Shown here: positions 47,814 to 50,538 of the stretch, piece by piece | Numbering within the stretch: position 1 is the first letter of the stretch | How the letters are laid out: every line of letters begins with the position of its first letter | Assembly: GCF_002215495.1 (NCBI RefSeq) | Contig: NZ_CP021378.1 | Location: 2,790,764 to 2,854,763 of the forward strand | Length of the DNA: 64,000 nt | DNA from: Porphyrobacter sp. CACIAM 03H1 | GTDB taxonomy: Bacteria > Pseudomonadota > Alphaproteobacteria > Sphingomonadales > Sphingomonadaceae | Direction of reading: 5' to 3' | Made by a program: the position numbers and the translations under genes | The notes under the pieces: model-generated | Database searches by the model: none | The model's input: the letters and a program-made list of their open reading frames with translations, nothing else | Told to the model about the DNA's origin: nothing

Positions 47814-48596
47814 ATGGCAGGACGTGTGGCGGGCAAGCTCGCATTGGTGACCGGGGCTGCGCAGGGCCTCGGCCGGGCGCATTGCATCCGGCTGGCGCAG
47901 GAAGGCGCGCGGGTGCTGGCGACCGACATCAACGGCGCGGGCGCGGAGGAGACCGCGGCGATCGTCAACGCGGAAGTGGGCGAAGGCACCGCCTTCGGCA
48001 TGGCCCATGACGTCACCGACCCCGCCCAGTGGGAAGCCGCGGTCGATGCCGCGCGCGAGAAGCTCGGCGGCCTCAACGTGCTGGTCAACAATGCCGGGAT
48101 CGGCGTTCCCGGCAACATCGAGGCCTGCGATTTCGGCGACTGGCAGCGGTGCTTCGACATCAACGTCAACTCGATCTTCCACGGCTGCCAGAAGGCCCTG
48201 CCCCTGATGCGCGAGCACGCGCCGGGATCGATCATCAACATCTCCTCGATCGCGGGGCTGATCGCGAGCGACACCATGCCGGCCTACAACGCCTCGAAGG
48301 CGGCGGTGTGGATGCTGTCGAAGTCGATCGCGCTGCACTGCGCGAAGAAGGGGATGCAGATCCGCTGCAACTCGGTGCATCCCACCTTCGTCGACACCCC
48401 GATCCTTGACGGGACGGCCCGCGCCCATGCGCTCGACAAGGACGTGCTGATGGAAAAGCTCGCGCGACAGATCCCGCTGAAGTTCGTCGGCGAGCCCAAC
48501 GACATCGCCAACGCGGTGGTCTACCTCGCCAGCGACGAGAGCCGCTTCATGACCGGCGCGGAGCTCAAGCTCGACGGCGGCATTTCGGCGATGTGA
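47814..48596 (+). CDS. Short-chain dehydrogenase
   Basis: A 260-residue classical SDR: cofactor motif TGAAQGLGRAHC, NNAGIG, catalytic serine in SSIAGLIASD and YNASK, and the C-terminal FMTGAELKLDGG. The acidic residue after strand 2 (ATDIN) indicates preference for NAD(H). The substrate is unknown; related enzymes act on hydroxy steroids or cyclic alcohols. It is four bases after the NUDIX gene and followed by a terminator. Confidence 0.88.
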   Translation: MAGRVAGKLALVTGAAQGLGRAHCIRLAQEGARVLATDINGAGAEETAAIVNAEVGEGTAFGMAHDVTDPAQWEAAVDAAREKLGGLNVLVNNAGIGVPGNIEACDFGDWQRCFDINVNSIFHGCQKALPLMREHAPGSIINISSIAGLIASDTMPAYNASKAAVWMLSKSIALHCAKKGMQIRCNSVHPTFVDTPILDGTARAHALDKDVLMEKLARQIPLKFVGEPNDIANAVVYLASDESRFMTGAELKLDGGISAM

Positions 48597-48619
48597 TCGG
48601 CAAGAGCCAGACAAAAAGA

Positions 48620-48647
48620 AAGGGGCCCCGAAGGCCCCTTCCCGGTT
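48620..48647 (+). terminator. Terminator after the SDR gene
   Basis: Arms AAGGGGCC / GGCCCCTT around CCGAA, preceded by an A-rich stretch and followed by CCCGGTTTTC. It is located 23 bases after the stop. Confidence 0.8.
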
Positions 48648-48658
48648 TTCTCGATCAG

Positions 48659-48702
48659 GTGCAGCGGCCCGATAACCGGGAACCGCTTGTCTGGCGCTGC
48701 AC
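48659..48702 (-). terminator. Hairpin at the 3' end of the pspC operon
   Basis: Arms GTGCAGCG (48659-48666) and CGCTGCAC (48695-48702) with an internal GC-rich loop. It abuts the pspC stop codon on the minus strand and probably forms the 3' end of the message. No clear T-run. Confidence 0.45.
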
Positions 48703-48918
48703 TCAATCGGCGATCAGAGCGATCGCCAGGTAGATCAGGATGAAGCTGCCGAAGCCGAGCAGGGTGCCGGCGACGAAGCCGATCCGCACCAGCATGGCGT
48801 CGATCCCGAAGTGGTCGGCGATCCCTGCGCACACGCCGAAGATCTTGCCGTTGGTCTTGTCGAGGCGGAAGCCGCGGCTGGGCGGCTTGCCGCCGGAGTG
48901 ACCGGTGATGTCGTTCAT
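48703..48918 (-). CDS. pspC: PspC domain protein
   Basis: A 71-residue phage-shock-type PspC: a short polar N-terminus, then FRLDKTNGKIFGVCAGIADH and a hydrophobic helix (LVRIGFVAGTLLGFGSFILI). The KIFGVCAGIA motif is the family signature. In enterobacteria PspC senses secretin stress with PspB and releases PspA from PspF. Here pspA, pspB and pspF are not adjacent. AAGGA lies about ten bases before the ATG at 48918. It is the last gene of a three-gene minus-strand operon. Confidence 0.9.
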   Translation of the reverse strand: MNDITGHSGGKPPSRGFRLDKTNGKIFGVCAGIADHFGIDAMLVRIGFVAGTLLGFGSFILIYLAIALIAD

Positions 48919-48944
48919 ATGTCTCGTGTCCTTTGCGGGTTCGA

Positions 48945-49058
48945 TCAGGCGGTCAGGCCGGGGGTGGCGGGAACGATCGCGTAGGCGAAGCTGGCGACGG
49001 TCAGGATGACAGCGAAGGCGGCCGAGGCGAAGCGGGCGGTCTGGTCGGGGGAGAACAT
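48945..49058 (-). CDS. 37-residue membrane microprotein, paralogue B
   Basis: A 37-residue protein: MFSPDQTARFASAAF, then AVILTVASFAYAIVPATPGL and TA. A single transmembrane helix occupies about residues 11-30; the end AYAIVPATP is shared with paralogue A (49095-49208, AYAIIPATP). AAGGA lies upstream of the ATG. It is too short for most gene finders. Function unknown; position in a Psp-type operon suggests an envelope stress role. Confidence 0.75.
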   Translation of the reverse strand: MFSPDQTARFASAAFAVILTVASFAYAIVPATPGLTA

Positions 49059-49094
49059 GGTCAATGGTCCTTTGTCTTGGTCGGGTACTGAGGA

Positions 49095-49208
49095 TCAGGC
49101 GACGAGGGTCGGGGTGGCGGGGATGATCGCGTAGGCGAAGACGGCGGCGGAAAGCACGACCGAGAAGGCGGCGGCGAAGAAGCGGTTGCTGGTTTCGATG
49201 GCGGTCAT
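49095..49208 (-). CDS. 37-residue membrane microprotein, paralogue A
   Basis: A 37-residue protein, MTAIETSNRFFAAAFSVVLS followed by AAVFAYAIIPATPTLVA. One transmembrane helix at about residues 10-30. It has a strong AGGAG ribosome site seven bases before the ATG. It is the same length as paralogue B and shares the RF-A-AAF and FAYAI-PATP pattern, so the two arose by tandem duplication. It is the first gene after the sigma-54-type promoter at 49270-49286. Confidence 0.78.
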   Translation of the reverse strand: MTAIETSNRFFAAAFSVVLSAAVFAYAIIPATPTLVA

Positions 49209-49269
49209 TGGAAGTCTCCTTTGGTGTTTCTTGTGATGTTTCCGGGACCATCCCGGGATGCCAGATACA

Positions 49270-49286
49270 TTGCAGGAGGCGTGCCA
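49270..49286 (-). promoter_or_regulatory. Sigma-54 (RpoN)-type promoter of the pspC-microprotein operon
   Basis: The minus strand reads TGGCACGCCTCCTGCAA. Against the consensus TGGCACG-N4-TTGCA there is one mismatch (C for the first T). The invariant GG and GC are exactly ten bases apart. Initiation would fall near 49260, leaving a leader of about 50 bases before the first ATG. Psp operons in enterobacteria are sigma-54 dependent, which fits. Confidence 0.65.
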
Positions 49287-49358
49287 AACTCGAAAAACGG
49301 CGGATTTCCGCCATTTCCATCCTTGCTCCAGGCAAACGCGCCGTTCAGCCAAACGAAA

Positions 49359-49379
49359 GCTTGGGAATTTTTCCCAAGC
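49359..49379. promoter_or_regulatory. Palindrome, possible upstream activating sequence for the sigma-54 promoter
   Basis: Perfect repeat GCTTGGGAA-TTT-TTCCCAAGC, centred about 110 bases upstream of the inferred transcription start of the pspC operon. This is the usual distance for enhancer-binding proteins such as PspF. A second, smaller palindrome GGCGG-ATTT-CCGCC is at 49299-49312. Alternatively it could regulate recF, which starts 70 bases away on the other strand. Confidence 0.5.
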
Positions 49380-49449
49380 ATTGGGATCGGCGATTTCGCC
49401 GCCTCGCGTCTGGCCAAATCTCACCCCTCCCGCTACCCCCGCCCGAGCC

Positions 49450-50538
49450 ATGGGCCTCAGCCGCATCAGCCTCGAGAACTTCCGCAACCACGCCGCGACG
49501 AACCTCGGCGAGACCGCGCATTTCAATCTGCTCGTGGGCGAGAACGGCGCGGGAAAGACCAACCTGCTCGAGGCGCTCTCGCTGCTCGGTCCGGGGCGCG
49601 GGCTGCGGCGCGCGAACCTCGGCGATCTGGCGCGGCGCGCGATGCCGGGCGATGCGCCGCTCCCCTTCGCCATCGGCGCGAGCCTGACCGAGGCCGGCAC
49701 CGTCTCCGCCCGCATCGGGACCTATACCGAGGCTGGCCAGCCGGCGCGGCGGCTGGTGCGGGTCAACGGCGCGCCCGCCAGCGCGTCGAGCCTTGCCGAA
49801 TGGCTTGCGCTCTCGTGGCTGACCCCTGCGATGGACGGGTTGTTCACCGACAGCGCCGGGGCGCGGCGGCGCTTCATGGACCGCATGGCGCTCGCCCTCG
49901 CCCCCGATCATGCGCGCCGCGTCAATGCGCTCGAGGCGGCCTTGCGGGAGCGCGGCAAGCTCCTCGAGAACCGCGCCGATCCGCGCTGGCTCGATGCCGT
50001 CGAGGCGCAGGTCGCAGAGCACGGCGCATCCGTCGCCCGGGCCCGCGCCGAGCTTGTCCTGCGCCTGGCCGACGAGCTTTCCGCCCTCCCTCCGGAGCCC
50101 TTCGCGCGGCCTGCGCTCGCCTATCTGCCGGGAGGCCCCACTGACCAGACCGCCCTGCGCGCCGAACTCGCCCGCGCCCGCCCGCGCGACCGCGCCGCGG
50201 GGCGCGCCCTCACCGGCCCGCAGCGCGACGAGTTGCAGGTGAAGATGGCCTCCTCCGGCCAGCCCGCCGCATCCTGTTCGACCGGTGAGCAGAAGGCGAT
50301 GCTGATCGCGATCACCCTCGCCCACGGCATCCTTGCCGCCGCCGGACGGCCCTCGGTGCTGCTCCTCGACGAGGTCGCCGCGCACCTTGACCCGGTGCGC
50401 CGGACCGAGCTTTTCAACCGGCTCCGGACCGGCAAGGCCCAGGTCTGGATGACCGGCACCGAACTTGCCCCCTTCGATCCGATCCGGGCCGAGGCAGCGG
50501 TCTGGCGGGTGGCGGGCGGAGGCGTGGAGCGGCTCTAG
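49450..50538 (+). CDS. recF: DNA replication and repair protein RecF
   Basis: A 362-residue RecF, an SMC-like ATPase that loads RecA at gapped DNA with RecO and RecR. Walker A is GENGAGKTNLLEA after RISLENFRNHA, the signature motif is STGEQKAMLIAI, and Walker B is VLLLDEVAAHLD. The length is usual. It is not next to dnaA/dnaN, as in several alphaproteobacteria. The ATG at 49450 gives the standard N-terminus; the frame upstream is non-coding. Confidence 0.94.
   Translation: MGLSRISLENFRNHAATNLGETAHFNLLVGENGAGKTNLLEALSLLGPGRGLRRANLGDLARRAMPGDAPLPFAIGASLTEAGTVSARIGTYTEAGQPARRLVRVNGAPASASSLAEWLALSWLTPAMDGLFTDSAGARRRFMDRMALALAPDHARRVNALEAALRERGKLLENRADPRWLDAVEAQVAEHGASVARARAELVLRLADELSALPPEPFARPALAYLPGGPTDQTALRAELARARPRDRAAGRALTGPQRDELQVKMASSGQPAASCSTGEQKAMLIAITLAHGILAAAGRPSVLLLDEVAAHLDPVRRTELFNRLRTGKAQVWMTGTELAPFDPIRAEAAVWRVAGGGVERL

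Follow-up and report, generated by a model that had tools for sequence, protein, structure and literature searches.

A candidate second PspF/sigma-54 operon encodes membrane microproteins and a short PspC in Erythrobacter-type bacteria

The window analysed here, a stretch of 64,000 nucleotides from Porphyrobacter sp. CACIAM 03H1, carries a small operon composed of two tandem microprotein genes and a gene for a short PspC. We think it rather probable that this is a second PspF/sigma-54 phage-shock operon, switched by PspF, in which the microproteins partner the short PspC. What has been found is a probable lineage-specific branch of the PspF regulon, and the microproteins probably belong to the membrane-stress (phage shock) response as new members that have hitherto been misnamed.

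Results and discussion

Two microprotein genes precede a short pspC

The three genes and the signals surrounding them are listed in table 1. The reading frames were located as the initial annotation had proposed, i.e. two paralogous 37-residue genes followed by that for PspC on the same strand, and the AAGGA/AGGAG site it had assigned to each gene is present in the form of AAAGGA, 8-10 nt 5' of the ATG in all three. The third product is a PspC as claimed, passing the Pfam model PF04024 with 63.3 bits (gathering score 25, E 1.9e-17). The two microproteins of the window are 54% identical, have AYAI(I/V)PATP in common and both carry a net charge of 0; structure prediction for microprotein 1 yields a single helix over residues 3-31 (mean pLDDT 84). 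Across the family the length ranges from 33 to 52 residues and tandem copies are frequent.

Table 1. Features of the microprotein operon and its upstream region (window coordinates).
Feature	Position	Strand	Remarks
Putative PspF site (enhancer), 9+3+9 inverted repeat	49379..49359	minus	from sequence
Enhancer core TTGGGAAAAATTCCCAA	49377..49361	minus	ends 74 bp upstream of the -24 T
Second dyad GGCGGAAATCCGCC, just upstream of -24	49299..49312	minus	conserved footprint block in 70 non-redundant promoters
Predicted sigma-54 promoter (-24/-12) TGGCACGCCTCCTGCAA	49286..49270	minus	GG and GC ten bases apart
Ribosome-binding site of microprotein 1, AAAGGAG	49216..49222	minus	from sequence
Microprotein gene 1	49208..49095	minus	37 aa; one predicted membrane helix; A-x-A-I-x-P near end
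Microprotein gene 2	49058..48945	minus	37 aa; paralogue of microprotein gene 1
Short pspC	48918..48703	minus	71 aa; PspC domain alone, without C-terminal extension
Intrinsic-terminator-like hairpin 3' of pspC	48643..48617	minus	12 pairs, then T-run

The microprotein frames are under purifying selection. In 378 pairs (not mutually independent) drawn from 28 loci with two microprotein genes, the median synonymous and non-synonymous differences were 0.39 and 0.12 for gene 1 (median pN/pS 0.32), 0.44 and 0.12 for gene 2, and 0.35 and 0.13 for the short pspC; pN was below pS in 378/378 pairs for gene 1 and in 377/378 for gene 2. Chance open reading frames are rejected on these values together with conservation across many genera. 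The divergent gene recF starts at position 49450 on the opposite strand. A simple scan of positions 48500-49560 found no sigma-70-like promoter, and Rfam at gathering scores found no RNA element in 48400-49700. The former interval contains two terminator-like hairpins, compared with a mean of 1.1 in shuffles, the second being the enhancer palindrome itself.

Neither microprotein matches any Pfam or NCBIfam model up to E 1, the models of PspG, PspD and PspB (PF06667, TIGR02976) included. Within the window's family, a search with a single sequence at E 0.1 recovered relatives in 12 of 149 genomes (one of these, G145, unconfirmed by the profile), and a profile at E 0.01 found them in 103 of 397 genomes and 35 of 96 genera, matches with E between 0.001 and 0.01 being possibly false. 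Since the other 294 sampled genomes have no profile match, a Psp response is possible without the microproteins. In a sample of the order, whose share outside the family is not given, all 101 matching genomes (out of 396) fall within the family, and a sample of the class gave two of 385, both from the window's own genus. The co-occurrence with rpoN carries no weight, as rpoN is encoded in 389 of the 397 family genomes. A protein search retrieved 1426 relatives of the microproteins; among the 120 listed, NCBI-derived names include 'recombination protein F' (12) and 'enoyl-CoA hydratase' (4). Among the papers listed in searches of the open-licence literature, we found no report on these microproteins or this operon.

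Gene order and promoter in relatives

Scanning the genomes of named species for the short PspC yielded 184 relatives, and the 80 loci closest to that of the window were retained, including Erythrobacter, Porphyrobacter, Qipengyuania, Pontixanthobacter, Tsuneonella, Pelagerythrobacter and Altererythrobacter; selection on PspC likeness biases this set to close kin. Because the loci were picked by PspC, the microproteins are the feature under test, and they were found directly 5' of the short pspC in 79 of the 80. One copy is present in 17 of these loci, two in 58 and three in four. The remaining locus (L165) encodes a 59-residue PspC and has a sigma-54-type element as well as a divergent 33-residue candidate frame that the profile missed. 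Conversely, all 30 loci picked by a microprotein contain a short PspC, some of these genomes having also supplied profile sequences. In 45 of the 79 loci, the stop codon of the last microprotein gene and the start of pspC overlap; the other 34 have a gap of 26 to 60 bases. Divergent recF is the neighbour in 77 of the 80 loci; part of the conservation is thus simple descent, and the label 'recombination protein F' looks like the name of this neighbour.

Microprotein genes also occur elsewhere. Three further loci, L015, L023 (genome G080) and L026 (G121), have them behind similar sigma-54-type elements, that of L015 with GT instead of GC, and no short pspC match was obtained within their 1.5-kb flanks. 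In G120, all four ends of its two contigs (L020, L025, L027 and L028) lie at microprotein genes, the copies at both ends of contig C1 being identical but in inverted orientation; the assembly thus seems to break where microprotein genes are duplicated.

As judged from sequence, the conservation of promoter and upstream enhancer gives strong support to sigma-54 control of the microprotein operon. The initial annotation had described a GG-N10-GC promoter element and a perfect 9+3+9 palindrome near -110, and both were located (table 1). The centre of the inverted repeat lies 83 bp upstream of the -24 T, i.e. at about -110 if transcription starts where the -24/-12 promoter dictates. The pattern TTCCCAA-N68..80-TGGCACG occurs once in the window, against 0.01 occurrences expected. 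The promoter could be tested at 77 of the 79 loci, two sequences being too short. The best -24/-12 score was 9 out of 12 in two relatives, 10 in 11, 11 in 58 and 12 in six; thus, 75/77 reach at least 10 and 77/77 at least 9, compared with 19 and 180, respectively, of 1540 single-base shuffles (161 at 9, 18 at 10 and one at 11). A second set of 35 promoters, partly overlapping the named one and with one duplicate removed, has GG in 35 and GC in 34. Both the reading frames and the GG-N10-GC element are conserved in related genomes.

The enhancer is conserved in position as well. In 69 of the 77 relatives, the distance from its end to the -24 T downstream is exactly 74 bp, and in 74 it deviates from this value by at most 2 bp, the best match lying elsewhere in three. 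Between 9 and 17 of the 17 enhancer bases are matched, and at least 13 in 61 relatives. A footprint over 70 non-redundant promoters resolves three blocks, namely the enhancer with CCAA/TTGG flanks, a GAATTC-centred dyad and the promoter. The second of these, about 19 bp upstream of -24, shows good conservation at the promoters of microprotein operons and less at those of pspA; in 49 of the 77 relatives, the best dyad has its centre 19 bp upstream of the -24 T.

PspF as the likeliest activator

The own genome, a single contig of 3,525,023 bases, encodes the remaining parts of the system. The observation that pspA and pspF are not present holds for the window and fails for the genome: pspF is divergent from a leader gene-pspA-pspB-pspC cluster some 240 kb from the microprotein operon, and this pspA is the only PspA-family gene. 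PspF, PspA, PspB and the canonical PspC all score above the NCBIfam (TIGR) equivalog cut-offs, PspF with 476.8 bits against TIGR02974 (cut-off 443.55). The gene rpoN, on which the initial annotation depended, is also encoded. Two of the three outcomes named as refuting that annotation, absence of rpoN and lack of conservation of the frames or the GG-N10-GC element, therefore did not occur. The interval between pspF and the leader gene contains AAAATTCCCAA, then AAATCCGCC and then AGTTTGGCACGCGGGTTGCAA, in the same order as in the window. Indeed, TTCCCAA-N55..85-TTGGCACG occurs twice in the 3.5 Mb genome, once at the microprotein operon and once at the pspA operon; both sites span 88 bp, and the reversed control gave no match. 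Given the matching layout of the pspA promoter in this genome, PspF is the likeliest activator of the microprotein operon as far as the sites indicate. Sigma-54 activator domains match at 11 places in this genome, seven of them strong (PspF being one of the seven), so another activator might act there.

A looser enhancer-promoter pattern was searched in 61 genomes of the genus, giving 59 matches in 36 genomes and none in the other 25, with 19 matches in all for the reversed control; 40 of the 59 span 88 bp (counted by hand). We examined the 31 matches that came with loci. A 74-bp spacer is present in 23, and 22 of these are followed by microprotein genes or the pspA leader gene, the exception being L201; among the eight off-spacing loci, the same holds only for L198 (73 bp). 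At 13 pspA promoters of relatives, the enhancer gap is 74 bp in eight, 75 in three and 76 in one (L044), and the promoter of a second PspA-family gene of G145 (L050) gave no enhancer match; the matches in L039, L044 and L046 are weak, with 10 or 11 of 16 bases. The gene pspF is divergent from pspA-pspB-pspC in all 12 genomes from the single-sequence search, 11 of which are confirmed by the microprotein profile (all but G145), and none was found within the fetched flanks of four additional PspA-family loci in these genomes. At L050, a microprotein-like 44-residue frame ending AAIAPAQVSAAQVEVVTYA precedes the second PspA-family gene, which has a sigma-54-like element.

The pspA operon has small proteins of its own. 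The leader gene in the own genome (L005 1813-1998, at about 3.080 Mb) encodes a small single-span protein with no match in Pfam or NCBIfam, and in 11 of 13 loci examined, a small single-span leader is encoded between pspA and a PspF-type promoter. These proteins (L005 and, in relatives, L039-L043 and L045-L049) have 50-61 residues and end in EIA, ELA or EIV. A common origin of the microproteins and the leader protein was considered and is not supported (hhalign probability 0.5%). Downstream of the canonical pspC, L005 3680-5510 contains a run of about six short frames, most of which are hydrophobic near the N-terminus and have in common a region of the type ER(I)(V/A)TD..EIEALR; the first has a weak PspB match below the cut-off, and the run looks like a tandem expansion of PspB-like proteins.

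In E. coli K-12, the two best matches to the Erythrobacter enhancer at pspA lie 64 and 84 bp from the promoter, i.e. one helical turn either side of 74, with 11 and 10 of 16 bases (about 0.05 matches of 11 bases are expected by chance). We take these two matches to be the known PspF sites. At pspG, the best match (13/16) lies at 145 bp and the second (11/16) at 51 bp, spacings unlike those of Erythrobacter, and the likeness of the enhancer to E. coli PspF sites is suggestive at most. According to the part of a study of the E. coli system used here, there are two PspF sites at pspA, and pspG is PspF-dependent with a single enhancer (PMC3709507).

The short PspC and its putative partners

The short PspC shares its domain with PspC proteins (PF04024) and differs from them in the absence of the C-terminal half. 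It falls below both NCBIfam PspC equivalog cut-offs; against TIGR02978 it scores 57.1 bits (cut-off 104) over profile positions 4-59 of 121. It ends at the position of residue 65 of E. coli PspC and residue 62 of the organism's own full PspC, and its C-terminus reads LIAD in 79 of the 80 named relatives and LIID in one. AlphaFold predicts three helices at low confidence (pLDDT 66). Among PDB sequences there was no match to the microproteins up to E 10, and only chance-level matches to the short PspC up to E 1.

A truncated E. coli protein, PspC1-68, offers a parallel. As described in the portion of the respective study drawn on here (PMC3068692), it bound PspB strongly and PspA not at all in two-hybrid assays and was unable to relay the stress signal; when overexpressed, it reduced the proton-motive force and growth, and co-expression of PspB offset the fall in proton-motive force. 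E. coli PspG binds PspC as well (PMC3068692). From these properties of PspC1-68, the operon would supply a PspC membrane module without feedback on PspA.

By analogy, we infer that the single-span microproteins may be membrane partners of the short PspC. Like PspB, they are predicted single-span membrane proteins encoded directly 5' of pspC, yet they are too short to include the cytoplasmic part of PspB. Like PspG, they would be small inner-membrane proteins whose operon is unlinked to pspF-pspABC, just as E. coli pspG is unlinked to pspA; however, E. coli pspG is a single gene of 80 codons, whereas the microproteins are shorter and co-encoded with PspC. The stress-induced E. coli protein YohP is, going by its partial description only, also a membrane protein of fewer than 50 residues, the microproteins differing in their predicted sigma-54 and probable PspF control. 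The suggestion that the microproteins substitute for a missing PspB is unsupported, as the genome has at another place a pspB gene whose product scores at equivalog level. They may act on the short PspC in the manner of PspB or PspG.

We propose that PspF would bind the enhancer of the microprotein operon and switch the operon on when PspA leaves PspF for the damaged membrane. The microproteins would span the membrane with a cytoplasmic N-terminus, pack along the short PspC helices and act as its PspB-like or PspG-like partners, and the complex may protect the inner membrane or tune the proton-motive force. It would not feed back on PspA, as the PspA-binding end of PspC is missing.

Alternative explanations

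The short PspC might instead be an anti-sensor that competes with full PspC for PspB or the membrane and so ends the stress response, with the microproteins mainly setting its dose by translational coupling. The lack of the PspA-binding end, the strong binding of PspC1-68 to PspB but not PspA (as given in PMC3068692) and the overlapping stop and start codons in 45 of 79 loci would fit. However, the overlap is absent in the other 34, the residues of the microproteins are conserved beyond mere position (pN/pS about 0.3), and L015, L023 and L026 have microproteins with no short pspC match nearby. We regard this explanation as unlikely.

A bolder version of the partnership between microproteins and short PspC, in our view quite unlikely, treats the operon by analogy as a proton-motive-force valve, in which the short PspC would be the counterpart of PspC1-68 and the tandem microproteins its guards, produced immediately ahead of it at a fixed ratio. 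If true, stress would bring about a controlled membrane module in place of a signal relay, and the envelope-stress regulon would contain a toxin-antitoxin-like pair, built from a new microprotein family so far found in one bacterial family.

It is also conceivable that a different enhancer-binding protein activates the operon in response to a different signal, the likeness to pspA promoters then reflecting shared helper sites. Six strong sigma-54 activators are encoded beside PspF, and the dyad near -24 is strongly conserved at microprotein promoters and less so at those of pspA. On the other hand, enhancer core, gap and -24 element come together in the own genome only at the microprotein and pspA operons, and all but one of the 23 examined on-spacing sites in the genus lead to these two operon types, which makes another activator improbable.

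Still more doubtful is the idea that the microproteins are export signals, from which signal peptidase, cutting after A-x-A, would free an uncharged, IVPASPxxxA-like periplasmic stress peptide of about ten residues. The family has features that would suit this: A-x-A-I-x-P is carried by 135 of 145 microproteins, and among these 135 an early basic residue is found in 133, an uncharged tail in 134 and a would-be peptide of 10-11 residues in 111. Some members, however, have T, C or V at the would-be cut position, and proteins with these residues there are poor substrates of signal peptidase. Both copies in the window have no net charge, and the single predicted helix would run through the cut site.

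Finally, that the microprotein genes are chance frames in the recF upstream region, conserved for other reasons, is hardly credible despite the nearly constant presence of divergent recF, given the excess of synonymous over non-synonymous differences in virtually every pair, the tandem paralogues and the additional copies elsewhere in G121 and G120.

Significance

Zymomonas mobilis belongs to the same order as the window's organism. A 2024 review of this species ascribes psp induction to PspF and sigma-54, with neither a binding site nor a second operon given in the portion drawn on here (PMC11186258). A 2022 survey, in the portion used, has PspF as a Psp regulator described only in Enterobacteriaceae (PMC9239133), and the strings 'sphingomon' and 'pspg' are absent from the main text of a 2024 survey of Psp partners (PMC11237479).

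Against this background, the footprint yields a concrete candidate for a PspF regulon of two operons in Erythrobacter-type bacteria, together with a candidate binding site. An unnamed microprotein family, carried in public records under wrong names, is added to the Psp network, and the role of PspC apart from signalling to PspA becomes testable.
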